Shown here piece by piece: positions 23,501 through 42,098 of a stretch of 64,000 nt of DNA. Position 1 is the first letter of the stretch, and each line of letters begins with the position of its first letter. The stretch spans positions 4,956,501 to 5,020,500 of the forward strand of contig NZ_CP018632.1 in assembly GCF_002215215.1 (NCBI RefSeq), in the 5' to 3' direction. Below the pieces are notes generated by a model that did no database searches, was not told where the DNA came from, and saw only the letters and a list, made by a program, of their open reading frames with translations. Made by a program: the position numbers and the translations under genes. This stretch comes from Granulosicoccus antarcticus IMCC3135 (lineage in GTDB: Bacteria; Pseudomonadota; Gammaproteobacteria; Granulosicoccales; Granulosicoccaceae).

Positions 23501-23745
23501 CCGATGCTTGACGAGAGACTTAACAGTTGATCTTATGCACAAGCCAGCTCAAACCTGCTGTAACTCACATTTTTGCCGTCTCAAACTGGCTTACATTCAG
23601 AAAAAAACCATAACTTGTTGTTTTAATTGAATATATAAAGATTGTTCAATTAATGCTCAATATGACAATAGTGTTACGGCATGCCGCTTGCAGAGCCATT
23701 TTCGCACTTCATCCACAAGGTTATCCACAGAAATTGTGGATAACC
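23501..23745 (+). repeat. DnaA-box repeat element, copy 1
   Basis: The left end is CCGATGCTTGACG (23501-23513), followed by TTATGCACA (23533-23541). TTGTTCAA is at 23642-23649, with TATGACAATA just after. The right end has TTATCCACA (23721-23729) and its inverse TGTGGATAA (23735-23743) separated by 5 bp. The inverted repeat extends outward here to perfect 19-bp arms (23711-23729 and 23735-23753). The left box is 188 bp from the right pair, and TTGTTCAA is 79 bp from it. Confidence 0.85.
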
Positions 23746-23939
23746 TTGTGGATTCTGAGCATATCCCACCCCATTGAATCCATGGTGGAATCAGAGTGCT
23801 GACAACAAGGAATCAGAAGGATTCTAGCCAGGCAGCCTTGTAACAAAGCGGATATTCACACTGGTCATAAAATGTACAAAACTCTGCAAGCCTGATGCCA
23901 TATAGGTTGCAGCGTTCTATACGCCAGCCGTCCACATAC

Positions 23940-23962
23940 TTATCCACAGTTAATGTGTATAA
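23940..23962 (+). repeat. shortened copy: inverted DnaA-box pair
   Basis: TTATCCACA (23940-23948) faces TGTGTATAA (23954-23962, the inverse of TTATACACA) across the same 5-bp spacing as in the full copies. The preceding CACATACT matches the left flank of the pair in copy 3. CCTGATGCC at 23891-23899 may be a remnant of the left-end motif, but the AT-rich middle is missing. Confidence 0.6.
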
Positions 23963-24089
23963 ACAGAGCATAATTGGGTGTTACCTTTTAGACGTGGAAT
24001 GATATTGCTCAAACTCCAGCGACAGTATTTCGACTCGAAAAAATGTAATCAGGCTGATTTTTTTGCAAACTGACAGTGTTTTGTCACTC

Positions 24090-24336
24090 CCGATGCTTGA
24101 CGTGATTAAATTCCTCTGAGCTTTATACACAACACGCCATTTCTTCCACAAAAAGCACAATTCCCACAACGTCCAATCGATGCCAAAAGTGAAAATACTT
24201 CTATCTCATTGATAATATTGAATTATTTAAATTTGTTCAAATATAGAACAATTTCACGATATTGTTATAGAACATGGCCTGCAGCACCTTTTCCGAGCTT
24301 CATCCACAAGGTTATCCACAGATTTTGTGGATAACC
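24090..24336 (+). repeat. DnaA-box repeat element, copy 2
   Basis: CCGATGCTTGACG at 24090-24102 matches copy 1 exactly. TTATACACA (24123-24131) is the left box. TTGTTCAA is at 24233-24240, in a strongly AT-rich stretch. TTATCCACA (24312-24320) and TGTGGATAA (24326-24334) form the right pair across GATTT. The distances left box to pair (189 bp) and TTGTTCAA to pair (79 bp) match the other copies. Confidence 0.85.
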
Positions 24337-24452
24337 AGAAAAGGGCACAACAAAACACTGGCGCTGGACAATATTTGTACCTGAAACGAAGGTTGTTTCT
24401 CACCTGCAGCTTCTGCCATGGCCTGCCCGAAATCTGCGTTACCTCGCTGCTC

Positions 24453-26444
24453 TCATGGTTGCTCAGTTTTCACCAGGCTAACCAGCAGACTGCCCCCGTC
24501 CACGGTGCCCTCGACACGGCAATGCACCTGCTCAACCACACCATCTCTGGGGGCCAGCACACTGGTTTCCATCTTCATGGCCTCAAGCACCAGCAGGCGC
24601 TGTCCCTCTTTGACACTCTGTCCTGGCAACACATCCACCAAACGGATGACACCGGTCATCGGAGCACTCACAAAATCGGCATTGCTGGCTGACTCCTTCG
24701 CAGACTCCAACGGGTCAGGGCAACGAAACTCCAGCGTTCTGCCTTCAGCAGACACACTCACACAAGCACACATTGGTTCATCCCAGCGCACAACAGATAC
24801 TCGCTTTTTAAGACCATTGACTTCAACCACCAGACAATCTGCAGATAATGGCTGAATTCGGACATCCAGCTGCACATCGCGACTGTCAACATCGAGCAGT
24901 TGATAATGTCCAGGTTCGGCAATGGCATACCTGAGCGTCTGCACCTCTCTCTGGCAATGCATTGTCAATAAATGACTAGCACTGCCCCATAGCCGCCAGC
25001 CTGACAACGACTCATTGAAGTCCACATCAGCCAAAGACAACGCGGCCACAAGGGTGCTGAGCATGGAGGCAGGCTCTACGGCTGTCAGCGTATCCAGCTC
25101 GCGCTCGATCAAACCGGTATCCATCATGCCTTCCACAAACAGTGGATGCCGTGCAAGAGCACCGAGAAAATCCACATTGGTGACTGTACCGGCTACCTGT
25201 GTGTTCTGCAGGGCGCGGCTCAATTGCTTCAAGGCCTGCTCACGCGTGTCTGCATGGGTGATGATCTTGGCAATCATCGGGTCATAGAATGGCGTGATGT
25301 CATCACCCGATCGCACCCCTGTGTCATTGCGGACTCGCGGATCGAACGTCAGCCTTTGCAAATGGCCGGTGGCGGGCAGAAACCCGGCCGGTACATCCTC
25401 TGCATACAGCCGAGCCTCAAAGGCGTGCCCCTGAATGCTCAGTTCATTCTGGGTGAAGGGCAAAACCTCACCGGCAGCCACACGTATTTGTGCCTCCACC
25501 AGATCTTGACCGGTTATCGCCTCGGTGACCGGATGCTCAACCTGGAGCCGTGTATTCATTTCCATGAACCAGAAACCATCCACACGTAGTCCCTGCGAGC
25601 CGTCGACAATAAACTCGATAGTACCGGCGCCTTCGTAATTGATAGCCTGTGCCGCTGTCACAGCCGCTGTCGTCATGGCAGCTCGTACCGCCTCGCTCAT
25701 CCCTGGTGCTGGTGCCTCCTCAATCACTTTTTGATGGCGACGTTGCAAGGAGCAATCTCGCTCGAATAGATGCACCACGTTGCCATGACTATCACCAAAC
25801 ACCTGTACTTCGATATGCCTGGGACTGAGGATATATTTCTCAACCAGTACCGCCGCATCACCAAAGGCACTGAGCCCTTCACGAGCAGCACTTTCCAGTG
25901 CCTGCTCAAAATCCTCGGCCCGATCCACTCGTCGCATTCCTTTGCCACCACCACCGGCACGCGCCTTGATCAGTACGGGGTAACCAATCAGCTCAGCTTG
26001 TTGCGCCAGAAAATCAGGCGATTGCTCGCTACCGTGATACCCCGGAACAACCGGCACACCGGCCTTTTCCATCAGGATTTTGGCAGCATCCTTCAATCCC
26101 ATGGCACGGATTGCACTGGCGGTGGGACCGACAAAGATCAGCCTTGCCGCTGTCACGGCTTCTACAAAATCGGGATTTTCCGATAAGAACCCATAGCCGG
26201 GATGAATGGCCTGAGCACCGCTTGCCAGTGCGGCGGCAATGATCTTGTTGCCATCCAGATAGCTTTCGCCCACCGGTGTTGCGCCAATGTGCACCGCCTC
26301 GTCGGCCAGTTCTACATGGCGCGCCTGGGCATCGGCATCAGAGAAGACAGCCACGGTGCGGATGCCCATGCTGTTGGCCGTTTGAATAATGCGGCAGGCG
26401 ATCTCGCCGCGATTGGCGATAAGTAGGGATTCAATCATGAGCAT
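24453..26444 (-). CDS. liuD: methylcrotonyl-CoA carboxylase biotin-containing alpha subunit
   Basis: ATP-dependent biotin carboxylase plus biotin carrier for 3-methylcrotonyl-CoA carboxylation in leucine degradation, 663 residues. The biotin carboxylase domain (about 1-450) begins SLLIANRGEIACRII and carries the ATP-grasp glycine loop KARAGGGGKGMR. The C-terminal carrier domain has EAMKMET with biotinyl-Lys624. Its start overlaps the liuB stop by one base. By sequence alone a propionyl- or geranyl-CoA carboxylase is possible, but the liuA-liuB context decides for leucine. Confidence 0.93.
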   Translation of the reverse strand: MLMIESLLIANRGEIACRIIQTANSMGIRTVAVFSDADAQARHVELADEAVHIGATPVGESYLDGNKIIAAALASGAQAIHPGYGFLSENPDFVEAVTAARLIFVGPTASAIRAMGLKDAAKILMEKAGVPVVPGYHGSEQSPDFLAQQAELIGYPVLIKARAGGGGKGMRRVDRAEDFEQALESAAREGLSAFGDAAVLVEKYILSPRHIEVQVFGDSHGNVVHLFERDCSLQRRHQKVIEEAPAPGMSEAVRAAMTTAAVTAAQAINYEGAGTIEFIVDGSQGLRVDGFWFMEMNTRLQVEHPVTEAITGQDLVEAQIRVAAGEVLPFTQNELSIQGHAFEARLYAEDVPAGFLPATGHLQRLTFDPRVRNDTGVRSGDDITPFYDPMIAKIITHADTREQALKQLSRALQNTQVAGTVTNVDFLGALARHPLFVEGMMDTGLIERELDTLTAVEPASMLSTLVAALSLADVDFNESLSGWRLWGSASHLLTMHCQREVQTLRYAIAEPGHYQLLDVDSRDVQLDVRIQPLSADCLVVEVNGLKKRVSVVRWDEPMCACVSVSAEGRTLEFRCPDPLESAKESASNADFVSAPMTGVIRLVDVLPGQSVKEGQRLLVLEAMKMETSVLAPRDGVVEQVHCRVEGTVDGGSLLVSLVKTEQP

Positions 26445-28039
26445 TACATCCGGAACAATCCGAAACGCGTTTCGGCGATGGGGGCATTCAGACAGGCTTT
26501 GAGTGACAAGGCCACCACATCTCGTGTGCTACGAGGATCTATGATGCCGTCGTCCCAGAGTCTGGCTGAGGCATACAACGGGTGTGACTGACTCTCAAAC
26601 TGTTCGAGTATGGGTTTTCTAAACGCGCTCTCATCCTCCTCAGACCAGGACTCGCCGCGTTTCTCCAAAGCACTGCGCTTGACATTGGCCATGACCCCAG
26701 CCGCCTGCGGTCCACCCATGACAGAGATACGCGCGTTAGGCCACATCCAGACAAACCGTGGACCAAACGCACGTCCACACATTCCATAATTACCCGCCCC
26801 ATAGGAGCCACCGATAATGATCGTGATCTTGGGCACCTCGGCGGTGGACACGGCATTAACCAGTTTGGCCCCATCCTTGGCGATACCGCCAGCCTCATAC
26901 TTTGAGCCCACCATGAAGCCCGTGATGTTCTGCAAGAACAGCAGCGGTATTTTCTGTTGGCAGCACAGCTCTATAAAGTGCGCACCCTTGGTTGAACTCT
27001 CTGAGAACAGCACGCCGTTGTTTGCCACGATACCCACCGGCATACCGCGTACCGAAGCAAAACCGCACACCAGGGTCGTACCGTAGCGCTCCTTGAACTC
27101 ATCAAACTCTGACCCGTCCACCAGCCGTGCAATGATGTTGCGAACATCATAGGGCTTGCGTACATCGGCAGGCACTAGCCCCATGATCTCTTCAGTGTCG
27201 AACAAAGGCTGCTTGAACTCTGTGGCTGCGACAGGCACTGCAGGCCTGGCTTTCAGATTGCCGACAATACGCCGAGCCAGGGCCAGCGCATGCTGGTCAT
27301 CATCGGCCAGGTAATCGGCCACCCCCGACAACCGGGTATGAGTATCGCCACCGCCCAGGGTCTCCGCATCGACCACCTCACCAGTGGCCTCCTTCAACAA
27401 CGGAGGTCCTGCCAGAAAGATGGTGCCCTGCTCACGCACGATGATGGTCTGATCACTCATCGCCGGTACATAGGCGCCACCGGCAGTACACGAGCCCATA
27501 ACCACCGCTATCTGGGCGATTCCTTGCGCACTCATGCGAGCCTGATTGTAGAAGATCCGGCCAAAATGCTCCTTGTCCGGGAACACCTCATCCTGATTGA
27601 GCAGGTTCGCCCCACCACTGTCCACCAGATACAGACAAGGCAGATGATTTTGCTCGGCAATCTCCTGGGCACGCAGGTGTTTTTTCACCGTCAGTGGGTA
27701 GTAGGTACCGCCTGCCACGGTGGCATCATTGCACACGATCATGCACTGCCGACCGGCCACCGTACCGATGCCGGCAATCACACCGGCTGCCGGTATGTCC
27801 TCGCTATAGCAGTTGCTGGCGGCAAACAAACCTACTTCCAGAAAAGCGCTGCCCGGATCAATCAGACCATTGATGCGATCACGCGGTAGCAACTTGCCTC
27901 GTTCCACATGTCTCTTTCTGGATCGCTCCGAGCCACCTTGCATTATTTTTTCCGCCTGCAGCGCGATTGCATCGCATTGCGAGCGCATGGCACAGGCATC
28001 ATCCTCGCTGAGGATCGCCTCTATTCCGATGCGAGCCAT
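26444..28039 (-). CDS. liuB: methylcrotonyl-CoA carboxylase carboxyltransferase beta subunit
   Basis: Transfers the carboxyl group from biotin to 3-methylcrotonyl-CoA, about 531 residues from the ATG at 28039. Carboxyltransferase features include [37 protein letters not shown] and [16 protein letters not shown], typical of methylcrotonyl-CoA carboxylase beta subunits. The open frame to 28072 would overlap liuA; the 28039 start lies directly after the liuA stop. The order is liuA-liuB-liuD. Confidence 0.94.
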
Positions 28040-28040
28040 A

Positions 28041-29204
28041 TCAGTGAGTCTCGTTGAACAGTTCACGACCAATCAGCATGCGGCGTATCTCGCTGGTACC
28101 CGCTCCAATCTCATAGAGCTTGGCATCACGCAATAGACGCCCTGTCGGGTACTCGTTGGTATAGCCATTACCTCCCAGACACTGAATGGCATCCAGAGCC
28201 ACTTGAGTGGCTTTCTCTGCAGAATACAAAATGCAGCCTGCCGCATTCTTGCGCGTGGTCTCACCACGCTCACAGGCACGGGCAACCGCATAGACATAAG
28301 CTCGGCAGGCGTTCATGGTCGTGTACATATCGGCCAGCTTGCCCTGCATGAGCTGGAAAGTACCAATAGCCTGACCAAATTGATGGCGCTCATGCACATA
28401 AGGTACAACCACATCCAGAGCAGCGGCCATAATGCCCAAAGGCCCTCCCGAGAGTACAACGCGTTCGTAGTCCAGCCCCGACATCAGCACATTGACACCA
28501 CGTCCCTCTTCACCCAATACATTGTCGAAGGGCACGAGCACATTTTCAAATACCAGCTCGCAGGTGTTGGAACCACGCATACCTAACTTGTCCAGCTTCT
28601 GAGCCGTTGAAAATCCTGGCATATCACGCTCGATCAGAAAAGCGGTGATGCCACGAGAACCGGCCTCAGGGTCGGTCTTGGCATAGACCACCAGGGTGGA
28701 GGCATCAGGCCCATTGGTGATCCACATCTTGTTGCCATTGAGAACATATCCATCAGTGCTTTTTTCTGCCCGCAATTTCATAGACACCACATCCGAACCA
28801 GAGCCCGGCTCTGACATGGCCAGTGCCCCTACGTGCTCGCCACTAACCAGCCTGGGAAGATAGCGGGACTTCTGCTCATCCGTACCCCAACGATTGATCT
28901 GGTTGATACACAGGTTCGAATGTGCCCCATAGCTCAGCCCCACCGAGGCACTGGCACGACTGATTTCCTCTATGGCGATGGTGTGTGCCAGATAACCCAT
29001 ACCAGAACCGCCGTATTGCTCTGGAACCGTGATGCCATGCAAGCCGATTTCACCCATTTTCTCCCACAGATCAGGCGGGAACTCGTTACTGGAATCGATC
29101 TGGGCGGCTCGTGGTGCAATCTCTTCCTGTGCAAAACGCTGCACCATCGATTGCAGGGCCTCTATATCCGCGCCCAGATCAAAGTTCATGGTTTCATTGA
29201 ACAT
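28041..29204 (-). CDS. liuA: isovaleryl-CoA dehydrogenase
   Basis: FAD enzyme oxidising isovaleryl-CoA to 3-methylcrotonyl-CoA and passing electrons to ETF, 387 residues. The acyl-CoA dehydrogenase signatures [11 protein letters not shown] and [13 protein letters not shown] are present. The catalytic Glu in [14 protein letters not shown] near residue 245 is in the isovaleryl-specific position rather than that of medium-chain enzymes. It is the first gene of the liu set. No liuR regulator, liuC hydratase or liuE lyase is beside it. Confidence 0.95.
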
Positions 29205-29323
29205 CTTGTATTCTCGCTTGAGTCATTCTGTGACACTGCCAGCGGGCTTAACCAAGCTGCCAGTTTCGTATTGACCGGTGATTCAGCTGCCTGCTGCAAT
29301 TAATAATCTGGGGCTGCGACCGG

Positions 29324-30610
29324 TTAGCGCATATCGACAATCAGCTTGCCATCATCGCTCAAGGTACCTGGCTCAACAATCGAGATGCTGGTATTCAGAT
29401 GGCAAATATCACGAAACACCTCCCTGATCATCTGGTTCTCCTCCGCCGTATCACGACCGATATAATCATCACTGTATTCACAGAACAGAATCACGTCATC
29501 TTTTTCATTGGTTCTGGAAATAATCAGTCGAGCTCTCTTCAAGCCCTTGACCCTGTCGCACAAGCTCGCAATCTGTCCCGGCCTGACAAACATGCCTCGC
29601 ACCTTGGTCGCCTCATCGGCACGTCCTAACCAACCTGCCAATACAGGTCCAGTACGACCATCCTGACGAGGTTTATCTACAAATGCAGATAAATCCCCGG
29701 TTCCAAAACGCACCAACGGATAATCATCTCGAAGGGTAGTCACTACCACCTCCCCAACCTCGCCTACGGCCGCCGGAATACCGGTGCCTGGCTCGACGAT
29801 TTCCACGATGACATCCTCATCCACCACCATTAATCCGCTGGGCTCAGTCTCGTAGGCAATCAGTCCCAGCTCTGCAGTGGCATAGAACTGCAATACATGC
29901 AGGCCACTGTCTTGAAAGAACTGGCGTAGACCCGGCGTCAGTGCGCCACCGCTGACTACCGCCTTTTTCAATGGCAGTGGTCCTCGATCTGCCAGCAAAC
30001 AGGCTTCAATCAGTGTTTTCAAAAAATCCGGTGTACCCACATAGGCTGTCGCTTCGTACTGAAAAACCGTGGTGACATGCAGCTCCATCGCCGCATTGCC
30101 AGCCGGAATCACCGCACAGCCCATCGCCCTGGCTCCAGCATCGAGTATCCAGGCACCGGGGGTCAGATGATAGGAAAACGTGTTGTGCACGATATCCCCT
30201 GACTGGAAACCTGCGGCACGCAACGCCCGCTGTGTTCTCCAGAATTCAGGCTTCATAAAACCTGGTTCATGAATGGGTCCCGGTGAAACAAACAGATAGT
30301 CAGGCTTGGCACCCGCACTCAGCAAACCTCCAAAAGGCGGACTTTTTTCCTGTATGTCGACTAGATCCTGTTTCCGCAAAACGGGCAGTTTTTCCAGATC
30401 AGAAACCCCCTGAATGGATTCAACAGAGTGCCCTGCATAGGCCTTGCCGTAATACGGCTGTGTCCAGGCCTGCTGCAACATGATTCGCAGACGAGACGCC
30501 TGTTCGGTAACCCGTTCGCTTGCAGCTCTGCACTCGCGATCGTCAATCTGGGCAGTCACCGGAGCACGATGCTGCACGTCCAACTTAGCTTCATTATCGT
30601 TAGTCATCAC
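29324..30610 (-). CDS. phenylacetate-CoA ligase-like adenylate-forming protein
   Basis: A 428-residue member of the PaaK-like branch of the AMP-binding superfamily, with VVSGGALTPGLRQFF, YATAELGLIAYE and the C-terminal GRADEATKVRGMFVRPGQI motif. The phosphate-binding loop is unusual: where PaaK has an SSGTTGxPT-type motif this protein has FVSPGPIHEPG. It may therefore be an altered or non-canonical ligase. It is the last gene of the importer operon, one base from the ATPase gene. It might activate the imported aromatic or branched acid; the substrate is unknown. Confidence 0.8.
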   Translation of the reverse strand: MMTNDNEAKLDVQHRAPVTAQIDDRECRAASERVTEQASRLRIMLQQAWTQPYYGKAYAGHSVESIQGVSDLEKLPVLRKQDLVDIQEKSPPFGGLLSAGAKPDYLFVSPGPIHEPGFMKPEFWRTQRALRAAGFQSGDIVHNTFSYHLTPGAWILDAGARAMGCAVIPAGNAAMELHVTTVFQYEATAYVGTPDFLKTLIEACLLADRGPLPLKKAVVSGGALTPGLRQFFQDSGLHVLQFYATAELGLIAYETEPSGLMVVDEDVIVEIVEPGTGIPAAVGEVGEVVVTTLRDDYPLVRFGTGDLSAFVDKPRQDGRTGPVLAGWLGRADEATKVRGMFVRPGQIASLCDRVKGLKRARLIISRTNEKDDVILFCEYSDDYIGRDTAEENQMIREVFRDICHLNTSISIVEPGTLSDDGKLIVDMR

Positions 30611-31438
30611 CTACAACCATCGCTTGCGTCGCTTGAACGACTTGATGTTCTTGAAACTCTTTCTGTCACCACCACCGCCAAGATAGAACTCCTTGATATC
30701 TTCATTGTTCTTCAGCTCTTCACTACTACCATCGAGCACGATTTTGCCGTTCTCCATGATGTAGCCATGCTTGGCACAATGAAGCGCCATAGCTGCATTT
30801 TGCTCCACCAGAAGAATGGTTGCTCCAAATTCACGATTGAGCTTCTTGATGATGCCAAACACTTCCTTGACCAAAAGCGGTGACAAGCCCATGGACGGTT
30901 CATCCAGCAAGATGAGTTTGGGTCGGGCCATCATGGCTCGCCCAATAGCCAGCATCTGCTGCTCCCCGCCAGACAGATAGCCCGCCAGACCAGTACGCTC
31001 GCGCAGTCTTGGAAAGTAGTCGAACACAAGATCCATATCTGGTTTGATCCTGGCATCTTTGCGCGAGAACGCGCCGAGTCTCAGATTCTCGATGACTGTC
31101 ATATCCTGAATGATGCGACGCCCTTCCATAACCTGAAACACACCACTTTTGACCATGGCCTCGGGCGGCTTGTGACTGATCGTCTGTCCGTCAAAGCGTA
31201 TCGATCCACGCGTAATTTCGCCATTTTCCGAATTCAGCAGCCCGCTGATCGCTTTCAGCGTCGTGGATTTGCCAGCACCATTGGAACCCAGTAATGCGGT
31301 TATCGAGCCTCTCTCAACCTCAAGACTCAAACCACGCAGAACCAGCACATACTCGTTGTAAACCACTTCAATATTGTCAATCTCGAGCAAATTGTCCTTG
31401 CCTGGATCGCTCGACTGCTGAATCACTTGCTGTTGCAT
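30611..31438 (-). CDS. branched-chain-type ABC importer ATPase (LivF-like)
   Basis: One of two ATPases of a HAAT-family importer, 275 residues. Walker A LLGSNGAGKSTT, signature YLSGGEQQML and Walker B LILLDEPSMGLSP are intact. The C-terminus carries an extra lysine/arginine-rich tail of about 30 residues (KSFKNIKSFKRRKRW). In this family LivF-type proteins are about 235 residues, so the tail is unusual. It lies between the binding-protein gene and the PaaK-like gene. Confidence 0.9.
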   Translation of the reverse strand: MQQQVIQQSSDPGKDNLLEIDNIEVVYNEYVLVLRGLSLEVERGSITALLGSNGAGKSTTLKAISGLLNSENGEITRGSIRFDGQTISHKPPEAMVKSGVFQVMEGRRIIQDMTVIENLRLGAFSRKDARIKPDMDLVFDYFPRLRERTGLAGYLSGGEQQMLAIGRAMMARPKLILLDEPSMGLSPLLVKEVFGIIKKLNREFGATILLVEQNAAMALHCAKHGYIMENGKIVLDGSSEELKNNEDIKEFYLGGGGDRKSFKNIKSFKRRKRWL

Positions 31439-31465
31439 GGTGCTTCCATCACATCAGAGGTAGAA

Positions 31466-31489
31466 GCAACGAACCTGCTGGTCCGTTGC
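31466..31489. terminator. attenuating hairpin between binding-protein gene and LivF-like gene
   Basis: GCAACGAACC (31466-31475) and GGTCCGTTGC (31480-31489) pair over 10 bp with one mismatch and a TGCT tetraloop. On the minus strand it follows the binding-protein stop by 34 bp. Such a structure could stabilise the binding-protein mRNA or partially terminate, giving more binding protein than ATPase. No T-run is present. Confidence 0.45.
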
Positions 31490-31523
31490 CCACGGATTAG
31501 AACAACGCTAATACCTGCTCGGC

Positions 31524-32762
31524 TTAATACCCGATCCAGTCATCACGTTGCGGCAAACTCACATCGGCAATTTTCTTGATAACAGCCTTGCCATCTACCG
31601 CTGTTCCGGTATTGATCGACACCGTCGTGGTGCCTCGATGATCTGTCTCGCTCCAGCTGGATGGCAAGCAGACACCTTCCAGACCATCAGGTACCCAGTC
31701 CTTTTTGGCGTACATGCCCTGCTTGATATTTTCACCCGTCATTCCACCGTTTTGCTTGGCCCATTCCATTGCCTCTTTCATGTAAAACACACTGCACACA
31801 GCGCGAATGTAATGGTGAGTCGGTTTCTCTGACTTGTCGAAGCTACCTTGAGCATGGATCTCACGAACACGGTCCATACCCGGTGCATCCGATTCCCAGA
31901 AAGGTGATGCGGAAGGAAAGACATAATCCACCGCCTCGGCCGCTTCAATGGTTCTGTAATCTCCACCCCAGATGTTGGCCATGTATTTCACTTCAGTACC
32001 TACCGTGCGGCATGATTTGAGCAACGAAACAACAGAGCCACCCAGGTTACCGATATAGGCGTAGTTGGCTCCCGAGTCCTTGATGGTCAGACACTGTGCC
32101 TTGAAATCACCGGGCTTCATGGGCACAACAATCGGGTTGAGCACATCCATACCCAGCTCAGCGGCGTACTCCGAACACGCCTCTTTGGGTGCATTCGGAT
32201 ACGGATGGTTATCCCCTAGATAGACAAACCTGGGTGATTCAACACCGCCTGCCTTGGCATCATCTGCCGCCCATTGCACCATTGCCCTACAGGCGTCGGA
32301 ATAGCTGGGTCCATAGAAAAAATTATACGGTGCAGGCTTTTCAGTCTTGCTGTTCAATCCCGTTGGATCGGTCAAATGCCCCGAATAGGACGCTGACCAC
32401 ACCGGAATTTTATCTTTGGCAACAAACGAAATCAGTGCTTCAGTATCGCCAGTACCCCAGCCTTGAAGTGCAACCATCTTCTTGCGTGACTTCCAGCGTT
32501 TGTAGGTAGCAATGGCTTCTGGCACCTTGTAGGCATAATCCACCTGTTCCATTTCTATCTGCGTGCCTGAGATTCCACCATTGGCATTGATCCAGTCCAC
32601 GGCATCCTTGATACCCGGTCCGTAGTTTTTACCGACAAACGCTGTAGGCCCGGTGTAATCGATCAGATTACCAACGAAGACGCTATCCTGGGCTTGTACC
32701 ATCGAGGCACTGGCAACCAGAATCGACAGGCCGGCCAATCGACCTATATGCTTGTTTCCCAT
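31524..32762 (-). CDS. periplasmic substrate-binding protein of a HAAT ABC importer
   Basis: Periplasmic-binding protein of the leucine/amide type (Peripla_BP_6), about 412 residues. The signal peptide ends SMVQAQDS near residue 24. The mature part starts VFVGNLIDYTGPTAFVGKNYGPGIKDA. I start at the ATG at 32762 because GGAGAG lies 8 bases upstream; the open frame goes 11 codons further. Proteins of this type near PaaK-like and acyl-CoA ligase genes are thought to bind aromatic or short branched acids rather than amino acids. Confidence 0.88.
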   Translation of the reverse strand: MGNKHIGRLAGLSILVASASMVQAQDSVFVGNLIDYTGPTAFVGKNYGPGIKDAVDWINANGGISGTQIEMEQVDYAYKVPEAIATYKRWKSRKKMVALQGWGTGDTEALISFVAKDKIPVWSASYSGHLTDPTGLNSKTEKPAPYNFFYGPSYSDACRAMVQWAADDAKAGGVESPRFVYLGDNHPYPNAPKEACSEYAAELGMDVLNPIVVPMKPGDFKAQCLTIKDSGANYAYIGNLGGSVVSLLKSCRTVGTEVKYMANIWGGDYRTIEAAEAVDYVFPSASPFWESDAPGMDRVREIHAQGSFDKSEKPTHHYIRAVCSVFYMKEAMEWAKQNGGMTGENIKQGMYAKKDWVPDGLEGVCLPSSWSETDHRGTTTVSINTGTAVDGKAVIKKIADVSLPQRDDWIGY

Positions 32763-32840
32763 TCTCTTTCTCTCCAAGTAGGTGTAGCTGAACAACAGAT
32801 GGCATTCAGGTGGTGATGCCGAGTTTCCGTGCAGAGATTG

Positions 32841-33914
32841 TCAGTAACTGAACGGGTAGAGCTTGATGGATTTGCGTATCTGACCGACACGATGCGCCAG
32901 ACCATCTGGCTCGAAAATCAAAAACAGAATGATGGCTGCCCCAATCGACATCTCTTTGATGTAGGCCTGGCCCGATGCCAGCCCTGACAAGGCACCGGGG
33001 AATGTGCCAATCAGCCCTGAGGTAAGGCTCTGCATCACTTGCGGTAGCAGCACGATAAAGGCGGTCCCCAGCAAGGTGCCGGGCACAGAACCCAGGCCAC
33101 CGATAATGATCATGGCCAGAAACTGAATGGATAACAGAATGGTGAACCCTTCTGCCGAGACAAATCCCAGATAATGTCCAAACAGCGCACCTCCCAGCCC
33201 GGCAAAGAACGATGAGATGCCAAAAGCCATAACCCGATACCGAGTCAGATTGATGCCCATGATCTCGGCGGACAGATAGTGATCACGTACAGCGATCAAG
33301 GCACGCCCGTCACGGGTGCGCTTCAGATTGGCAACGGCAATATACGACACAATCACCCAGAACAGCACCAGATAGTAGTAGCGCTCATCCGTATCCAGCA
33401 GAAAGCCAAACAGGTTGACCGTTTCAGCCAAAGACCCTGAGGAGCCTCCGGTAAACCAGCTGGCGCGGGCAAAGAAATCTTCAAGAATGAATTGTGCAGC
33501 CAGGGTTGCCATGGCCAGATACAAGCCCTTGATACGTGCAGCCGGCAAACCGAAGAGCATGCCCACAGCGGTGGTTAGAACACCTGCCAGAGGGATGCTT
33601 AGAAAAACCGGTATGCCCGTTGTCCCATTGATCCAGGCAGAGGCGAACGCACCAAAACCAAAAAAAGCGGCATGTCCCAGACTGATCTGTCCTGTCATGC
33701 CCACCACGATATTCAGACCCAGTGCAGCAATGCCGTAGATACCGATCAGAATCATCAGACTGATCAGATAGGCATCCAGCAATAACGGCGCTGCCAGCAG
33801 AACCAGCAAACCAAGTGCGGCGGCCCAACCAATCCAACGAGTCAGAAACAGATACTGATCCTGCTTGTAGGTGGTTCTGAAATCACCGCAGGGTCTCAAT
33901 GATGATGTACTCAT
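32841..33914 (-). CDS. HAAT importer permease (LivM-like)
   Basis: Inner-membrane permease of 357 residues with about ten hydrophobic segments. The family motif GLNIVVGMTGQISLGHAAFFGFGA (about 65-88) and the cytoplasmic coupling stretch RDHYLSAEIMGINLTRYRVMAFGISSF are clear. It pairs with the LivH-like permease upstream. Confidence 0.92.
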   Translation of the reverse strand: MSTSSLRPCGDFRTTYKQDQYLFLTRWIGWAAALGLLVLLAAPLLLDAYLISLMILIGIYGIAALGLNIVVGMTGQISLGHAAFFGFGAFASAWINGTTGIPVFLSIPLAGVLTTAVGMLFGLPAARIKGLYLAMATLAAQFILEDFFARASWFTGGSSGSLAETVNLFGFLLDTDERYYYLVLFWVIVSYIAVANLKRTRDGRALIAVRDHYLSAEIMGINLTRYRVMAFGISSFFAGLGGALFGHYLGFVSAEGFTILLSIQFLAMIIIGGLGSVPGTLLGTAFIVLLPQVMQSLTSGLIGTFPGALSGLASGQAYIKEMSIGAAIILFLIFEPDGLAHRVGQIRKSIKLYPFSY

Positions 33915-34025
33915 GTCAGCACTGCCTCAACGTTACGATTGTCGTGTTGCTCGTGTCGTGGTCCGACCCCCGAGAAAAACCAGGAGCTTTGAGATAGATC
34001 GCCTGAACAGGCTGTTCACTGTTCA

Positions 34026-34919
34026 TCAGATACGCTCGATATCACGGGTGCCAAACAGGCCATAGGGTTTGATCATGAGAATGATGATCAGCACATAAAA
34101 CGGGGCGACCGTATACAGATTACCTATATGCAAATACTGCCCGTCGACGTATTCGGCCAGATTCTCCAGCACGCCAATCAGGATGCCGCCTATCACCGCC
34201 CCAACGATGGAATCCAGTCCACCCACGATAACGGCGGGAAACACCTTGATACCGATAAAGGCCAAGGAGTTGGAGACAGAATTGACGATGCCAATAATGA
34301 TGCCTGCGATACCGGACACGACCGCTGAGATGGCCCATGACATGGCAAACACTTGCTTGACGGAAACCCCCAGACTCTGCGCCGCTTGTTGATCCGAGGC
34401 GGTGGCACGCATGGCCAGACCGTGACGTGAATATTTGAAGAACAGATAGAAGATCAGCATGATGACCATCGACAGAACCAGGCTCAGCAGATACGCCATC
34501 TCCACGTTGAAATTGCCGATACTGACCACCTCGGTTTCAAAAATCTTCGGAAACGAGGCGGCATTATTGCCAAATATCCAGTTCATGCCCGCTTGCATGA
34601 ATATAGACAACCCGATGGTGACCATGATGATCGAGATGATCGGCTCACCGATCAGTGGTCGCAGCACCACCATCTGAATGACGATACCGAAGATCATCAT
34701 GAACACCATGGTGAATAGAAAGGCCAGCCAGAAAGGCAGACCCATGTTGGTTACCAGCGCCAGGCAGACCCAGGCCCCCAGCACCAGAAATTCTCCCTGC
34801 GCAAAGTTGACCACCTGAGTCGATTTATAGATCAGCACAAAACACATGGCGACCACGCCATACAGCATGCCTACAATGACACCGTTGGCCAGTAACTGAA
34901 GCAGCAATGAAGTATTCAT
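34026..34919 (-). CDS. HAAT importer permease (LivH-like)
   Basis: Inner-membrane permease of 297 residues with eight or so hydrophobic segments. VVNFAQGEFLVLGAWV near the N-terminus and MRATASDQQAAQSLGVSV plus GLDSIVGAVIGG near the C-terminus are LivH signatures. Its start overlaps the 3' end of the acyl-CoA synthetase gene by 4 bp, so the two are coupled. Confidence 0.93.
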   Translation of the reverse strand: MNTSLLLQLLANGVIVGMLYGVVAMCFVLIYKSTQVVNFAQGEFLVLGAWVCLALVTNMGLPFWLAFLFTMVFMMIFGIVIQMVVLRPLIGEPIISIIMVTIGLSIFMQAGMNWIFGNNAASFPKIFETEVVSIGNFNVEMAYLLSLVLSMVIMLIFYLFFKYSRHGLAMRATASDQQAAQSLGVSVKQVFAMSWAISAVVSGIAGIIIGIVNSVSNSLAFIGIKVFPAVIVGGLDSIVGAVIGGILIGVLENLAEYVDGQYLHIGNLYTVAPFYVLIIILMIKPYGLFGTRDIERI

Positions 34920-36856
34920 GACAGCGCCTCCCGGGCATCAGCAAGCTTGTTATCATCAAGGACGTGCACCACGATCGAGGTTTGTATTCTCTGCTGTGTA
35001 CCGTCCTGGAACGTGATCATCGTATCCACCTCAATAGCCTGTCTATCGGTATAGATGGCATCGATGATGTCTTCATACTTCTGGTTGACCACCTTTCGCC
35101 GCACTTTGCGCGTGCGCGTCAGCTCACCATCATCAGCGTCCAGCTCCTTGTACAACAGGACAAATCGTCGCAGGCGCTGGGCCTCGGGTAAGGTCTCGTT
35201 GATACGCTTGATCTCCTCAGATATCAGCTCATAGGCCTCAGGGCGCGATGACAGATCTGTATAGGTGGTAAACGAGATTCGTTGTTTCTCCGCCCACTTG
35301 GACAGAATTGGGTAGCGGATGCAGATCATGGCAGTCAGATAGTCACGATCAGCACCCAGCACTACCGCCTCACCGATATAGGGGCAGAATTTGAGCTTGT
35401 TCTCAATGAACTGCGGTGAATAACGCAAGCCGCTGTTCATCGTTGCCAGATCCGATATGCGATCAATGACAACCAGATGTCCTGCTGAGTTGTAATAACC
35501 AGCATCCCCTGTGTGCATCCAGCCTTCGCGCATATCCTCCTGGCTGGCAACCTCATCCTTGTAGTAGCCCAAGAACATATTGTCATGACGTGTGACTATT
35601 TCACCAATGCCTTTTGCATCAGGCTGCTCGATGCGCACCTTGATTGCATCGCAAAATGGCACACCCACCGTATCAAAGTCCACATCATCACGGCTGTGTA
35701 TGGTGTACGCACCCAATAATTCGGTCTGGCCATATAACTGTCGCAGTGGCACTCCCATCGCCAGAAAGAACTTGAAGGTATCAGGCCCCAGAGCGGCACC
35801 GCCGGTTGCTGCCGAGCGTACATTCGTCAAACCGAGTCGATCCTTGAGTGCCTTGAACAAGCCCCACTCAGCCAATGCTGATGGCTGGTTGCTATCAAAC
35901 CCGCTCAAACCCTTGCTCAGAAAATGATCATGCAACGTACGTTTGACCCAGCTGGCATCCATCATTCTGGCGCGCACCGTGGCGACAAGCTCCTCCCAGA
36001 GCCTGGGTGGGAATAATACAAAGGTGGGTCCTATCTCACGCAGATCTGACAACATGGTTGCGCTTTCTTCAACGAAATTTACGGTCATTCTTGAGATCAA
36101 TGACATACCTACCGCATACACCTGCTCCATGATCCAGGGCAATGGCAGTGTGGACACATACTCATCCGTCTCATCCTTGGGATCCACACGCAGATAATCA
36201 TTGCAGTGCTCAATGACACTGCGAGCATTGAGCATGACCAGCTTGGGGTGAGAGGTGGTACCCGATGTGGTACATAAAATGGCCAGCGTCTCCCCATTAC
36301 CCGCGCTAACCAGAGATTCATAGGAGGCTGGCTCTTGCTTATGTTGCGCCTCACCTTGTTCACGCAGACTCTCCAGCGAGATTAGTCGTGGATCATCGTA
36401 TTTACGAACACCGCGCGGGTCTTCGTAGATGATGTGTTCAACACAACTGCACTCTTCCTCCAGGTTAAGGAACTTGTCCACCTGCTCTTCATCTTCGACA
36501 AAGACGATTCTGGTTTCTGCATAGTTGACCAGATACGCCAACTCCTGCTCCATCAGATCCCGATACAAGCCCAGGCTCACCCCCTGGCAGGCGTGTACGG
36601 CAATCTCGGCTGCTACCCAATCGGGTCGATTGTCACCGATGATTCCCACGATTTCACCGGGCTTGATACCCAGAACCTGCAGACCTTGTGCAATGCTGCG
36701 AACATTGCTGTTGTACTGCGACCAGCTCTGGCTTTTCCAGATGCCATACTGCTTTTCTCGCAGTGCCGTCTCATCAGGAAAACGGGCCGCATTGGCTGCC
36801 AGTAATTTGGGGAAGGTATCCAGCACCGGATTCTCTTTGCTACTGAGCTGATTCAT
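34916..36856 (-). CDS. AMP-dependent long-chain acyl-CoA synthetase
   Basis: ANL-superfamily ligase of 646 residues that activates a carboxylic acid to its CoA ester. The phosphate loop is CTTSGTTSHPKLV (about 210), followed by YGQTEL (about 375) and GWMHTGDAGYYN (about 440). The long LC-FACS layout is typical. It sits inside the importer operon between the LivG-like ATPase and the LivH-like permease, overlapping both by 4 bp, which suggests that it traps the imported acid as a CoA ester. Substrate unknown. Confidence 0.9.
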   Translation of the reverse strand: MNQLSSKENPVLDTFPKLLAANAARFPDETALREKQYGIWKSQSWSQYNSNVRSIAQGLQVLGIKPGEIVGIIGDNRPDWVAAEIAVHACQGVSLGLYRDLMEQELAYLVNYAETRIVFVEDEEQVDKFLNLEEECSCVEHIIYEDPRGVRKYDDPRLISLESLREQGEAQHKQEPASYESLVSAGNGETLAILCTTSGTTSHPKLVMLNARSVIEHCNDYLRVDPKDETDEYVSTLPLPWIMEQVYAVGMSLISRMTVNFVEESATMLSDLREIGPTFVLFPPRLWEELVATVRARMMDASWVKRTLHDHFLSKGLSGFDSNQPSALAEWGLFKALKDRLGLTNVRSAATGGAALGPDTFKFFLAMGVPLRQLYGQTELLGAYTIHSRDDVDFDTVGVPFCDAIKVRIEQPDAKGIGEIVTRHDNMFLGYYKDEVASQEDMREGWMHTGDAGYYNSAGHLVVIDRISDLATMNSGLRYSPQFIENKLKFCPYIGEAVVLGADRDYLTAMICIRYPILSKWAEKQRISFTTYTDLSSRPEAYELISEEIKRINETLPEAQRLRRFVLLYKELDADDGELTRTRKVRRKVVNQKYEDIIDAIYTDRQAIEVDTMITFQDGTQQRIQTSIVVHVLDDNKLADAREALS

Positions 36857-37641
36857 GACGCCAGAGTCTCCTCATCATCGAGCCATTCAGCGCCCAGATA
36901 AGCCCGCTTGACGTGCTCGTTCTCCATCACAGTATCGGGCAGACCGTCCACCACCTTGGCACCAAAATCCAGCACCATTACTCGACTGGAGATATCCATG
37001 ACCACGCCCATATCATGTTCAATCATGATCACGGTCATGCCCATTTCTTCGTTGAGATCGACAACGTATCTGGCCATGTCCTCTTTTTCTTCCATGTTCA
37101 TACCGGCCATTGGCTCATCCAGCAGAACCAGCTTCGGCTTCAGAGCGATGGCTCTGGCCAGCTCAACGCGCTTTCTGAGCCCGTAGGACAAGGTGCCTGC
37201 GATGGCGTTGCGAATAGGTTGGATTTCGAGAAAATCGATGATCTCCTCTACATAACGGCGATGCTCAAGCTCCTCCTTTTGCGCACCAAACCAATAGGCC
37301 ATGCCTGTCAGAAAATTGTTTTTCAACAGATGATGTCGACCCACCAGAATGTTATCCAGCACACTCATGTGATCAAACAGCGCCAGATTCTGAAACGTTC
37401 TGCCAATGCCCAGATCAGGACGCGCATTAGGCTTCATACCGGTGATCTCGGTACCTGCAAAACGTATCGATCCCTGGTCCGGTGTATAACGACCGGAGAT
37501 GCAATTGAGCATCGATGTCTTGCCGGCCCCGTTGGGACCGATGATCGAATACAGCTCCGCCTCTTCGACGGAAAACGTCACCTCATCCAGAGCGCGTACG
37601 CCCTTGAAACTCAGTGACACATTCTCCACTTCCAGCAACAT
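36853..37641 (-). CDS. branched-chain-type ABC importer ATPase (LivG-like)
   Basis: Second ATPase of the HAAT importer, about 262 residues from the ATG at 37641 (MLLEVENVSLSFKGV). Walker A IIGPNGAGKTSM, an LSYGLRKRVELARA signature (LSYG rather than LSGG, common in LivG proteins) and Walker B LVLLDEPMAGMN are present. The open frame extends to 37728, but the upstream residues are not conserved. First gene of the importer operon, divergent from the histidine kinase with about 254 bp between the starts. Confidence 0.9.
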   Translation of the reverse strand: MLLEVENVSLSFKGVRALDEVTFSVEEAELYSIIGPNGAGKTSMLNCISGRYTPDQGSIRFAGTEITGMKPNARPDLGIGRTFQNLALFDHMSVLDNILVGRHHLLKNNFLTGMAYWFGAQKEELEHRRYVEEIIDFLEIQPIRNAIAGTLSYGLRKRVELARAIALKPKLVLLDEPMAGMNMEEKEDMARYVVDLNEEMGMTVIMIEHDMGVVMDISSRVMVLDFGAKVVDGLPDTVMENEHVKRAYLGAEWLDDEETLAS

Positions 37642-37781
37642 CGTTAGCCCCACCCAGTCAAAGTCTGCCCGCAGACCAAATGCTCTACAGCCTTGGCCGA
37701 AGAACCTTGAGCTCAAACTAGCAAGCAATCATTTCCGGAGAATTTCAAACTTATTTCGAATTGTTGCAAAGCAACTCTTTG

Positions 37782-37787
37782 TATACT
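37782..37787 (+). promoter_or_regulatory. candidate -10 element for the kinase-regulator pair
   Basis: TATACT at 37782-37787 is a good -10 hexamer; TTGTTG at 37761-37766 is a weak -35 at a short 15-bp spacing. A small GTTGC-AAA-GCAAC inverted repeat lies between them. It is located in the 254-bp divergent gap between the importer operon and the kinase gene. Suggestive only. Confidence 0.3.
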
Positions 37788-37895
37788 CGAACAAGGCCGA
37801 TTTTTCGGATCACCAGAGCACGCGCATGCAATGACGTATGTATTCAATGCTCGTCATGCCTGTGCAAGCAGTCGACCAGGGAGAGACTCAATTCA

Positions 37896-39905
37896 GTGGA
37901 CAGTCCTGCTTACGACGACATCATTGATGATCGAAGCTTTGTCGATCAGGGTCTGAACCTGATCAATCAGGCGCTGTCCATCTTCAACACCGAGATGCGC
38001 CTGATAACCTGCAATCGCCGATTCATAGAGATGTTCGAGCTGCCGGAAAATCTGGTACTCGCCGGTAGCACCTTTGCAGATATCAATATGTACCTGGCCA
38101 GACGTGGCGAATTCGGCCCTGGCGATCCAGCCACCCTGGCAAGTGAGCGGCTCGAACGGGCCAGACTTTTCGAGCCACACTATTTCGAGCGTACTCGGCC
38201 CAATGGACGTCGCATCTCGGTCGAAGGCCACCCACTCAGCGACAAGGGCTGGATTACCATCTACTCGGATATCACTGAGACCTGGCAAAACGAGCAGATG
38301 CTCAAGTCTCGCGATGCCGAACTGTCCGACAAGCTACTGGTCAGAACCGAGCTTCTTTCTGCCACCAATCGCAGTCTGACCTCAGCCAACCGTGCGCTAC
38401 AGGAAACCAAGTCTGCCTTGCAGGCCTCCGAGGATCGCATGCGCTCGATCACCAGCGCAATTCCAGCTCATATCGCCTATATCGATACCCGCTATATCTA
38501 TCGGTTTTCCAATAACCGCTTCAGCGATACGATGAAGATCAAGCGACCCGGCGTGACGGGTCGTACGATGGAGAGCATTTTCCCCGCACAGGTATTCACC
38601 AAACTACGACCCAAGCTTGATGAAGCATTCGGCGGTCAGCGCACCGATGTTGAATACGAGATGATTGATGATGAGGGCAACACACAATTCCTACGCACCA
38701 TTTTCTCTCCCGAGATTGATGAGGAAGGCCTCACTCTGGGCGCTTTTGTGCTGTCGCTGAATGTCTCTGCCGAAAAAGCGGCCACCGAGCTGCAACTACA
38801 AGCCAAACGCATGGAAACAACCGCCCAACTGACCAGTGGTCTGGCGCATGATTTTTCCAATATTCTGACCGTCATTCTGGGTAATCTCGGTCGTCTGGCC
38901 GATCTGTCCAATGACGAGAACAGTCGCCTTGTCAGTTCCACCGAATCAGCGGCTCGTCGTGGCACACGCATCATCGACAATCTGATGGCCTTGCTCTATC
39001 GGCAACATCTGGATGTTCGTGAAACCAATGTCAGCAAGATCATGAGCGACCTGGCAACGCTGTTCAGTGCATCGATGAGCGAATCGATTGTTGTTGATCT
39101 GCAAATTCCAGACAAGGACATCATCGCCATGGTTGATGGCGGTGCCTTGCAAGATGCCATTCTCAATATATTGTTCAACGCACGCGATGCTATCGAGAGC
39201 TGCTCCATCGAAGGCCGCCTGGGTATCACCGCCTCCATTATTGACAGTGCCACCTCCCACTGCCTGCAAGTATCGGTCACAGATTCTGGCGCAGGCTTCA
39301 CCGCAGAGGCACTGAGTTCTGCCATCGAACCATTCTTTACAACCAAACCTCAAGGTAAAGGCAGTGGATTGGGTTTGGCCATGGTTCACGGTTTTCTCGA
39401 AGAATGTAGCGGCAAGCTATTGTTGTCCAATAATGCTGACGCAGGTGCAACCGTCACAATCAACATTCCTCTCTCGCCACTTGAACCCGGCCTTGTTCGC
39501 TCTCAGGAGACAGCCGATGCACTACATCACCAGCGAGTATTGATTGTGGATGATGATGCCGAGCTGCGCGCCCTGATGCGTGACCATGCCACCGAACTGG
39601 GGCTATCGGTTATCGAGGCCGATAGTGCCGAAGAGGCTGGCCTTCTATTGAGCCGAGTAGACGGGATTGATGCGCTGATATCCGATATCATCATGCCTGG
39701 CGATGACAACGGACTTGATCTGGCACGCCAGGCGACAAGTACACGGCCTGCCCTGAAGGTGCTTCTGGTCAGCGGCCTCGCCGTTGACAACTCTCTTTTT
39801 CAATTCGCCAATGCCGAGTTTCCTGTTCTCAGAAAACCTTTCGACAAAAAAACCTTTTCTCGACAGCTCGTCCAGTTGCTGTCCACCAGCGCGAATCCGC
39901 AATGA
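37896..39905 (+). CDS. hybrid PAS histidine kinase with C-terminal receiver
   Basis: Predicted cytoplasmic sensor, about 669 residues; no membrane segment is seen. Order: PAS domain (about 20-125), coiled coil (about 140-190), second PAS (about 195-300), HisKA with His318 in LAHDFSN, HATPase (about 425-540, with GKGSGLGLAMVHGF), and a receiver (about 555-665) with Asp597 in ISDIIMPG. I choose the GTG at 37896 because AGGGAG lies at 37878-37883; the frame is open to 37761. Its stop overlaps the response-regulator start. It probably senses a ligand related to the divergent importer. Confidence 0.87.
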   Translation: MDSPAYDDIIDDRSFVDQGLNLINQALSIFNTEMRLITCNRRFIEMFELPENLVLAGSTFADINMYLARRGEFGPGDPATLASERLERARLFEPHYFERTRPNGRRISVEGHPLSDKGWITIYSDITETWQNEQMLKSRDAELSDKLLVRTELLSATNRSLTSANRALQETKSALQASEDRMRSITSAIPAHIAYIDTRYIYRFSNNRFSDTMKIKRPGVTGRTMESIFPAQVFTKLRPKLDEAFGGQRTDVEYEMIDDEGNTQFLRTIFSPEIDEEGLTLGAFVLSLNVSAEKAATELQLQAKRMETTAQLTSGLAHDFSNILTVILGNLGRLADLSNDENSRLVSSTESAARRGTRIIDNLMALLYRQHLDVRETNVSKIMSDLATLFSASMSESIVVDLQIPDKDIIAMVDGGALQDAILNILFNARDAIESCSIEGRLGITASIIDSATSHCLQVSVTDSGAGFTAEALSSAIEPFFTTKPQGKGSGLGLAMVHGFLEECSGKLLLSNNADAGATVTINIPLSPLEPGLVRSQETADALHHQRVLIVDDDAELRALMRDHATELGLSVIEADSAEEAGLLLSRVDGIDALISDIIMPGDDNGLDLARQATSTRPALKVLLVSGLAVDNSLFQFANAEFPVLRKPFDKKTFSRQLVQLLSTSANPQ

Positions 39906-40627
39906 ATCCCACTACCTCAATTGCTGTCATCGAGGATGATGATGATATCGCCGACATCATCGTCAGCGTACTTGCAGAAGCTGGCTATCAGGTGCGTCGA
40001 TTTGCAACAGCCGCCAGCTTCCATGAAACGCTGAAGACAGACAGACCCACACTGTGCCTGATTGATCTGGGACTACCTGATGAAAATGGACTCGACCTTG
40101 TCAGGCTACTATCCAATACTCACAATATCCCGAACATCATCATATCCGGCAAGCGAGCCTTGACCGACAAGTTGATCGGCCTGGAGCTGGGGGCTGATGA
40201 CTATATAGCCAAACCTTTTGAATCTGCCGAACTGGTGGCCAGGGTTCGTACCGTGCTGCGTAGAGCCGGTAACGAAGGACGCCAGGTCACAGCACCACAT
40301 CAGTCTCTCGCCCGGTTCCAGCAATGGACCATTGATTTCAATTCCTTCCGACTCATCGATGAGCAGAACAATGAAATCAGTCTGAATCGCTCAGAGGTGG
40401 AAATTTTACGCGTATTTCTGAACAGACCGCATCAATTGTTATCTCGCTCACAGATTCTCGAGCATCTGCAGCTGGACGTGGACAGCAACTTCGATCGCTC
40501 CATTGATGTCCGTATTTCACGGCTGCGCAACAAATTGGGAGAGGACCGTCAGAATCCCAAAATCATCAAGACGGTTTACGGCGAAGGCTATCTATTTGCA
40601 GCCGTGGTGACTTGGGTGCAGAGCTGA
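39902..40627 (+). CDS. OmpR-family response regulator
   Basis: DNA-binding regulator of 241 residues. The receiver domain has acidic residues EDDDD at 11-15, the phosphoacceptor Asp55 (CLIDLGLP) and the conserved Lys in DDYIAKPF. The C-terminal winged helix (about 140-235) contains LNRSEVEILRVFLNRP and SIDVRISRLRNKLGED. It overlaps the kinase gene by 4 bp (ATGA). The likely phosphate path is His318 to Asp597 within the kinase, then on to this regulator or directly to it. Confidence 0.92.
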   Translation: MNPTTSIAVIEDDDDIADIIVSVLAEAGYQVRRFATAASFHETLKTDRPTLCLIDLGLPDENGLDLVRLLSNTHNIPNIIISGKRALTDKLIGLELGADDYIAKPFESAELVARVRTVLRRAGNEGRQVTAPHQSLARFQQWTIDFNSFRLIDEQNNEISLNRSEVEILRVFLNRPHQLLSRSQILEHLQLDVDSNFDRSIDVRISRLRNKLGEDRQNPKIIKTVYGEGYLFAAVVTWVQS

Positions 40628-41145
40628 ACATTAAGACTATCCACCTTGCGTAGCACTTCTATAACAGCTCTGTAGTTCAGCTACAAGGATAAATCGGAGT
40701 AACTAACCTGATAGTTCAATTATATTTCGAAATTCACTCAAAATTAGTCATCCTGATGCTTGACGGACGGGAAAATTGTTGAGCTTATGCACAAGCGCGC
40801 CATTATGGGGCAAATCACCTGAGAATTGAAGGCACGAAGCTCTAACGCATTCGTGACTTTTTATATCTACTTGTTTTCATTGAGTTTTCTGTAATTGTTC
40901 AAATTATGTGCAATTTGACAATACCGTTACACGACAACGGTTTCAGCCTGTTTCAACGGGTTCATCCACATACTTATCCACAGATTTTGTGGATAACCCA
41001 TAGAGAGGGGAACTGAACCCTCAGAAGCCAAAAAATCGGAAATAAAACTCCAATTTCGACAGGTTTTATCACTTTATCGGCCCAAATCTGATAGACAAGT
41101 GAATCAAGGTCCTTACATAGCCCGGGCCATGGAGGTACCGTCTGC
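40628..41145. other. non-coding region with third DnaA-box repeat
   Basis: The gap between the convergent response-regulator gene and recR is 518 bp, AT-rich and without a credible gene. Apart from the repeat at 40752-40998 nothing was recognised; a run of A/T-rich sequence follows on the recR side. Confidence 0.75.
40752..40998 (+). repeat. DnaA-box repeat element, copy 3
   Basis: CCTGATGCTTGACG (from 40752) differs from the other copies by one base at the left end. TTATGCACA (40785-40793) is the left box, followed by AAGCGCGCCATT, partly shared with copy 2. TTGTTCAA (40895-40902) is followed by an AATTTGACAA block, an imperfect inverted repeat of TTGTTCAAATT. TTATCCACA (40974-40982) and TGTGGATAA (40988-40996) form the right pair across GATTT. 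Spacings of 189 and 79 bp equal those of copy 2, about 16.7 kb away. Confidence 0.85.
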
Positions 41146-41768: not shown

Positions 41769-42098
41769 TTAGAATGGCAGCTTCATGCCCGGCGGCAATT
41801 CCATACCGTTTGTCAGACCACTCAGCTTGTCTTTAGAGGCGACTGCAAGGCGCTGTGAAGCATCGTTAACGGCAGCTGCCACCAGATCTTCCAGCATATC
41901 CTTGTCATCACCAATCAAAGAGTCGTCAATTGAGACCTTTCGCAGCTCATGCTGACCATTCATGGTGACCTTGACCAGACCGCCACCGCTCTGACCTTCG
42001 ATCTCCATATTGGCGATCTCTTCCTGCGCACGCTGCATGTCTTCTTGCATCTTCTGCGCTTGTTTCATCAGGTTGCCTATACCGCCTTTCATATTCAC
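41769..42098 (-). CDS. ybaB: YbaB/EbfC nucleoid-associated protein
   Basis: Small DNA-binding protein of 109 residues, forming dimers with a tweezer-like shape. [20 protein letters not shown], the Gly-rich [15 protein letters not shown] and the C-terminal [20 protein letters not shown] stretch (shown in part) fit the family. It is co-transcribed between dnaX and recR. Confidence 0.95.

Follow-up and report, generated by a model that had tools for sequence, protein, structure and literature searches.

A probable DARS-type DnaA-reactivating element with fixed Fis and IHF spacing in Granulosicoccus antarcticus and other Gammaproteobacteria

We analyzed a stretch of 64,000 nucleotides from the chromosome of Granulosicoccus antarcticus IMCC3135 (here called the window; positions 4956501–5020500 of a single 7,783,862-bp contig), which contains three full copies, named A, B and C, of a non-coding element about 220 bp long (Table 1). 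Each full copy consists of a distal DnaA box, an IHF-like site at −97 relative to the start of the core and situated in the AT-rich DNA of the element, a Fis site at −64, and a core of three DnaA boxes, in which box I is opposed to boxes II and III and the gaps are 3 bp and 5 bp in all three copies. Judging from these sequence features, each full copy is probably a chromosomal site of the DnaA-reactivating sequence (DARS) type, at which DnaA binding, ADP release and an effect on initiation timing would be expected by analogy with work in E. coli.

An earlier note on this DNA had described a threefold repeat built around three DnaA boxes and had proposed a protein–DNA assembly resembling the DARS or datA sites of E. 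coli. The three copies are real, and the window has 11 occurrences of the DnaA box TTATNCACA compared with 1.88 expected, a count reached in none of 100 dinucleotide shuffles. The noted spacing was also reproduced, with the left box found 188, 189 and 189 bp from the right pair of boxes (starting at 23721, 24312 and 40974) and a TTGTTCAA block (at 23642, 24233 and 40895) located 79 bp from that pair in all three copies, although this block turned out to be only part of a wider Fis-type dyad. The number of boxes per copy had to be corrected to four, since every copy also has TCATCCACA at a distance of 3 bp ahead of the right pair, and the three full copies are accompanied by an additional degenerate copy between A and B. 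The shared left end was found as GATGCTTGACG (at 23503, 24092 and 40755), but as a local feature: a TTGAC/TGACG motif some 25 bp ahead of the distal box was frequent within the family and not in the wider set.

The fixed spacing was seen also in related genomes. Elements of relatives were chosen by the core alone and then scanned upstream using the IHF consensus TAANNNNTTGATW, taken from PMC4245941, and the Fis consensus GNNYANNNNNTRNNC. This gave 185 elements, being 78 from the family and 107 from GTDB, the latter counted from 117 stretches after exclusion of three matches too near an end and otherwise of repeated sequences. The site peaks, which were also compared with shuffles, lay at −174 to −180 for the distal box (with a second peak at −163/−164 among family elements), −96 to −98 for IHF and −63 to −66 for Fis. 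A distal box with at most one mismatch was present in 56 of the 78 family and 93 of the 107 GTDB elements, an IHF site with at most two mismatches in 50 and 90, and a Fis site with at most one mismatch in 76 and 87, respectively, with all three together in 46 and 67. When the register was shifted by −40, −20, +20 or +35 bp, the corresponding counts among all 185 elements were 2–20 for the distal box, 2–35 for IHF and 9–12 for Fis. The distance from distal box to IHF site, in the 66 elements having both clearly, was 77–82 bp in 58, 68 bp in two and 88–89 bp in six, and thus appears to vary in steps near one helical turn, as would be expected if looping matters.

The earlier note had suggested a search of the complete genome and of close relatives, and this showed that the window copies are neither alone nor confined to this species. 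Searching first with the three-box pattern and afterwards with a profile of the element, R1, we found 11 places in the own genome at E ≤ 1e-5, and the core was present within three mismatches in 43 of 48 family genomes (own included), most of them carrying one or two, with three large-genome relatives having 11, 12 and 13 cores. In the family three places are usual, namely the pntB–priA interval, the downstream side of an error-prone DNA polymerase gene, and the interval between orn and recR-ybaB-dnaX; the large-genome relatives carry three or four tandem copies at the orn–recR place. In the class, R1 matched 330 of 370 sampled genomes at E ≤ 1e-5 (324 of 364 high-quality genomes; 248 of 272 genera), mostly with one to three matches each. 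As this survey scored six candidates per genome with stricter filters, these copy numbers are lower bounds, and some genomes counted as lacking a match may be misses given the limited scoring. In control searches with an nhmmer profile of the R1 alignment, reversed loci totalling 2.48 Mb gave no match (E ≤ 10), nor did own-genome background (20 stretches of 20 kb, 400 kb together). Within a phylum sample, 81 of 120 genomes matched R1, and 28 of the listed rows, own genome included, were of the same class; matches in other classes were mostly weak, with the exception of one family, f173. That family, with genomes of 1.6–3.1 Mb (e.g. G445, G435 and G448), had full-length matches and up to nine matches per genome.

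The gene following the element also recurred, which is information outside what the R1 model could know. The priA gene came next on the same strand, with its start within 400 bp, for 33 of the 107 GTDB elements, and also for 18 of the 30 loci that were returned for the class; the name PriA rests on a family search in two loci and on similarity in the remainder. For second copies we rejected a fixed neighbor, as their contexts vary (xseA, hemW, gltA-like, recR and others); gltA-like and other such names are readings made without family search, and some of the open reading frames (ORFs) appear to be spurious, lying antisense in GC-rich sequence.

The closest likeness was to the DARS loci of E. 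coli. The three boxes of a DARS core are spaced alike in DARS1 and DARS2, and box I is oriented against the other two (PMC5742627). The DARS1 core of MG1655, located between bioD and uvrB, reads CTAATACACA-TGG-TTATCCACA-GGAAT-AGTGGATAA, and hence has the same box order and the same 3- and 5-bp gaps as the element, with four of 28 fixed positions differing. Although R1 was built without any E. coli sequence, it scored DARS1 at 42.3 bits (E 4.9e-12 in a search of E. coli loci rather than the whole genome; model positions 11–230, with inserts). The minimal DARS1 has 101 bp and is active in vitro without added factors (PMC5742627), whereas IHF and Fis sites are conserved in the element. DARS2, in the rppH–mutH region, likewise has, next to its core and on the side of box III, sites for IHF and Fis and is spacing-sensitive (PMC4245941), and ATP-DnaA displaces Fis through its box V (PMC8682772); our consensus scan of DARS2 placed IHF near −86 and Fis near −124, and R1 saw this locus weakly, at 19 bits. 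Non-oriC clusters of DnaA boxes affect initiation in B. subtilis as well, an organism that reportedly lacks Hda, IHF, datA and DARS loci (PMC13220808). The proposal of a DARS- or datA-like assembly was thereby upheld by box order and gaps, fixed IHF and Fis spacing, conservation in relatives and the absence of a match at dnaA loci, with some features shared with datA as well.

The own genome encodes Hda, IHF-alpha and IHF-beta, all scoring above curated cut-offs, and has a Fis homologue, these being the parts that the E. coli mechanism needs. Searching proteins with E. coli Fis (E ≤ 1e-5, no family search), we found a homologue in all of 20 complete element-bearing genomes compared with six of 20 genomes without a match, the latter being those listed of 40 such genomes. 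By our own arithmetic this gives a one-sided Fisher p of about 1.7e-6, and it provides an independent functional hint.

Several observations weigh against a DARS-type assignment or limit its reach. DARS2 has the order core–IHF–Fis (PMC4245941) whereas the element has core–Fis–IHF, and therefore we do not file it as a DARS2 orthologue, while the R1 match to DARS1 is due mostly to the core of that site. R1 also matches outside the class and so is not class-specific. The Fis homologue of the own genome scores below the NCBIfam curated cut-off, and the co-occurrence with Fis may partly reflect confounders, namely ancestry, genome reduction (some no-match genomes are reduced or fragmented) and the limited scoring behind the no-match group. 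Among eight core-picked rows in the own genome, three had the distal box, three the IHF site, six the Fis site and three all of them; one of these rows reads a near-palindromic core near 23721 on the reverse strand, and four copies with more than three mismatches (those at 6560, 3095 and 307 kb and the degenerate one in the window) are not among them. The copy between pntB and priA (contig 307468–307687) has a damaged core with box I shifted, which looks as if the orn–recR copies had taken over. Finally, an IHF-to-box distance of 97 bp is common to the element and datA.

The last point bears on the strongest alternative, namely that the element is a site for DnaA titration or datA-like inactivation, or a dual site, at which clustered boxes would sequester DnaA or, together with IHF, stimulate ATP hydrolysis. 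We consider this unlikely, yet well ahead of the explanations that follow. E. coli datA lies just downstream of rsgA-orn, as do copies A and B. Its exact IHF consensus stands 65 bp after one box and 97 bp before another, which is followed after 3 bp by an opposed box; this layout is close to that of the element, with about 80 bp from box to IHF and about 98 bp from IHF to box III. The several strong boxes beside an IHF-like site also agree with such a role, and amplification to 11 places would fit titration. On the other hand, datA is without the three-box core and showed no Fis consensus in the 400 bp scanned, both of which the element has, and its activity in E. coli is the opposite one, ATP hydrolysis. 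Profile matches to datA were short and weak (cmsearch 9.1 bits, model 200–216; nhmmer 11.4 bits, model 8–116), and the frequent neighbor in the wider set is priA, with orn not among the recurrent ones. We had at first regarded the shared orn neighborhood as a coincidence, given that the orn place was seen in the genus Granulosicoccus alone among the relatives examined. This view was revised on the shared IHF-to-box distance, because of which the datA-like alternative was given more weight and the DARS assignment less.

The AT-rich DNA flanked by strong DnaA boxes and a length of about 245 bp, near that of the minimal E. coli oriC, also raised the possibility of a replication origin, either the main oriC or the remnant of a plasmid or phage origin. 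The dnaA gene lies at base 317 of the contig, and sampled GC skew kept a positive sign between 0.19 and 3.7 Mb and a negative one from 4.09 Mb up to the contig end; its sign therefore changes near dnaA and at 3.7–4.1 Mb rather than at the elements, placing the start of replication near dnaA and the window on the left arm. The window copies are intergenic and, at about 2.8 Mb from dnaA along an arm of 3.9 Mb, are situated between oriC and ter, as is DARS. The best profile score at dnaA loci was 14.1 bits, which is no match (28 genomes with 2.5–4.5 kb each, plus the own), and 34 strong R1 matches in 21 complete genomes were spread over 0.02–0.90 of an arm from dnaA (median 0.21, with genome sizes rounded to 0.1 Mb). 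Skew, position and profile score together rule out the element as oriC, and an origin of any kind is very improbable. In the own genome, the dnaA–dnaN gap (1693–1956 of its stretch) holds three TTATCCACA boxes and no box within one mismatch was seen upstream of dnaA, for which reason oriC is probably located downstream of dnaA. A polarity with respect to replication was likewise considered and dropped: the first eight pattern places of the own genome all faced the fork, bar the one reverse reading of the near-palindromic core, but R1 gave 10 of 11 own places in only five clusters, and in complete genomes the count was 19 versus 15.

We found it similarly improbable that the element is a promoter region controlled by DnaA and Fis, above all that of priA, as its frequent position before that gene might suggest. 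The layout is constant at different places, and in the window the copies are flanked on both sides by the 3′ ends of convergent genes, A and B by those of orn (23442) and a biotin-carboxylase gene (24453) and C by those of a response-regulator gene (40627) and recR (41146), and therefore are not promoters of those neighbors.

A dispersed repeat, arisen by transposition or slippage and without function in the cell cycle, was given equally little credence. The 11 own places comprise the three full window copies, the degenerate one beside them, the full-length but core-damaged copy at 307 kb and six short copies, partly clustered, which share a CTATACGC linker. All of the latter except the 3075-kb copy, hence the five at 613, 3091, 3095, 6560 and 6569 kb, have an exact Fis consensus at −64, the core of the 3095-kb copy is itself mutated, and neither distal box nor IHF site was found in any of the six. 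Near the short copies are ORFs that look, on reading without a family search, transposase-like and toxin–antitoxin-like, and these ORFs, the 11 places, the common linker and the tandem arrays of relatives would all agree with a mobile or slipping repeat. On the other hand, the filler has diverged while the sites were kept, a point from which the earlier note had argued against recent spread; moreover, near-identical cores occur at apparently the same places in different species, and the element is conserved across the class.

Table 1. Positions of the element copies, their parts and the flanking ancestral genes (window numbering unless stated; mm, mismatches)
Feature	Position	Strand	Details
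Copy A, full type	23501–23745	+	R1 103.9 bits
Copy A, distal DnaA box TTATGCACA	23533–23541	+	−175 from core start
Copy A, IHF-like site TAACTTGTTGTTT	23611–23623	+	1 mm to TAANNNNTTGATW; −97
Copy A, Fis consensus	23644–23658	+	0 mm; −64
Copy A, DARS-type core	23709–23743	+	box III 23709–23717; box II 23721–23729; box I 23735–23743 (opposite strand)
Degenerate fourth core, short type	23927–23962	+	boxes at 23940 and 23954; CTATACGC upstream; Fis consensus 23863–23877
Copy B, full type	24090–24336	+	R1 102.5 bits
Copy B, distal box	24123–24131
Copy B, IHF-like site	24202–24214		1 mm
Copy B, Fis site	24235–24249		1 mm
Copy B, core boxes	24300–24334
Copy C, full type	40752–40998	+	R1 105.8 bits
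Copy C, distal box	40785–40793
Copy C, IHF-like site	40864–40876		2 mm
Copy C, Fis site	40897–40911
Copy C, core boxes	40962–40996
orn (oligoribonuclease), ancestral left neighbor	22897–23442	+	PRK05359, 288 bits
recR, ancestral right neighbor	41146–41745	−	then ybaB 41769–42098, dnaX 42217–44025
Short-form copies (contig positions)	613568; 3075854; 3091308; 3095518; 6560591; 6569551

About 16 kb separate copies B and C (24337–40751), with genes for a biotin carboxylase, a carboxyl transferase, a histidine kinase and a response regulator, among others. Relatives have the tandem element array alone between orn and recR, without this segment, and from that arrangement we read the 16 kb as apparently inserted at a place where, ancestrally, an array stood between orn and recR.

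If the full copies are DARS-type sites as we propose, ADP-DnaA arising from Hda-dependent hydrolysis would assemble on the core, IHF and Fis would bend the DNA of the element, and DnaA would be freed of its ADP, whereupon the released apo-DnaA could take up ATP and become able to fire oriC. Least securely, the distal box might loop back to the core via the IHF bend or else act as a feedback sensor in the manner of DARS2 box V, and it is perhaps akin in role to that box or to the outer box of datA. The short copies, with Fis site and core, would be gated by Fis only, and the many copies in the large Granulosicoccus chromosome could give more capacity for reactivation (or titration).

More tentatively, one ancestral gammaproteobacterial DnaA-control element, with the order distal box–IHF–Fis–core, often beside priA and commonly in one to three copies per genome, might have given rise to DARS1, DARS2 and perhaps datA. 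We hold this joint scenario to be possible but doubtful. It would have datA keep the orn neighbor and the IHF-to-box distance, would allow a switch between hydrolysis (IHF loop and distal box) and reactivation (Fis and core), and would make copy number, with the Fis-only short form counted in, a means for some lineages (among them Granulosicoccus with its large genome) to adjust initiation.

According to a review, many proteobacteria have conserved sequences that resemble DARS1 and DARS2 (PMC10380432), and DARS conservation has been described mainly for species close to E. coli (PMC4245941, PMC5742627, PMC8682772). For the core–Fis–IHF–distal box layout, the priA place and the amplification we found no description in the literature searched, the scope of which left the founding 2009 DARS paper outside and covered the available parts of the other sources. 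DARS-like sequences being already known in proteobacteria, what is new here is best read as a layout variant, not another kind of site. How DARS sites reactivate DnaA was elucidated in E. coli, and the R1 matches give places for testing this mechanism outside the enterics; the survey points to Fis as a co-occurring partner, and the range from one to about 13 copies offers a natural series in which to ask whether DARS dosage follows chromosome size.

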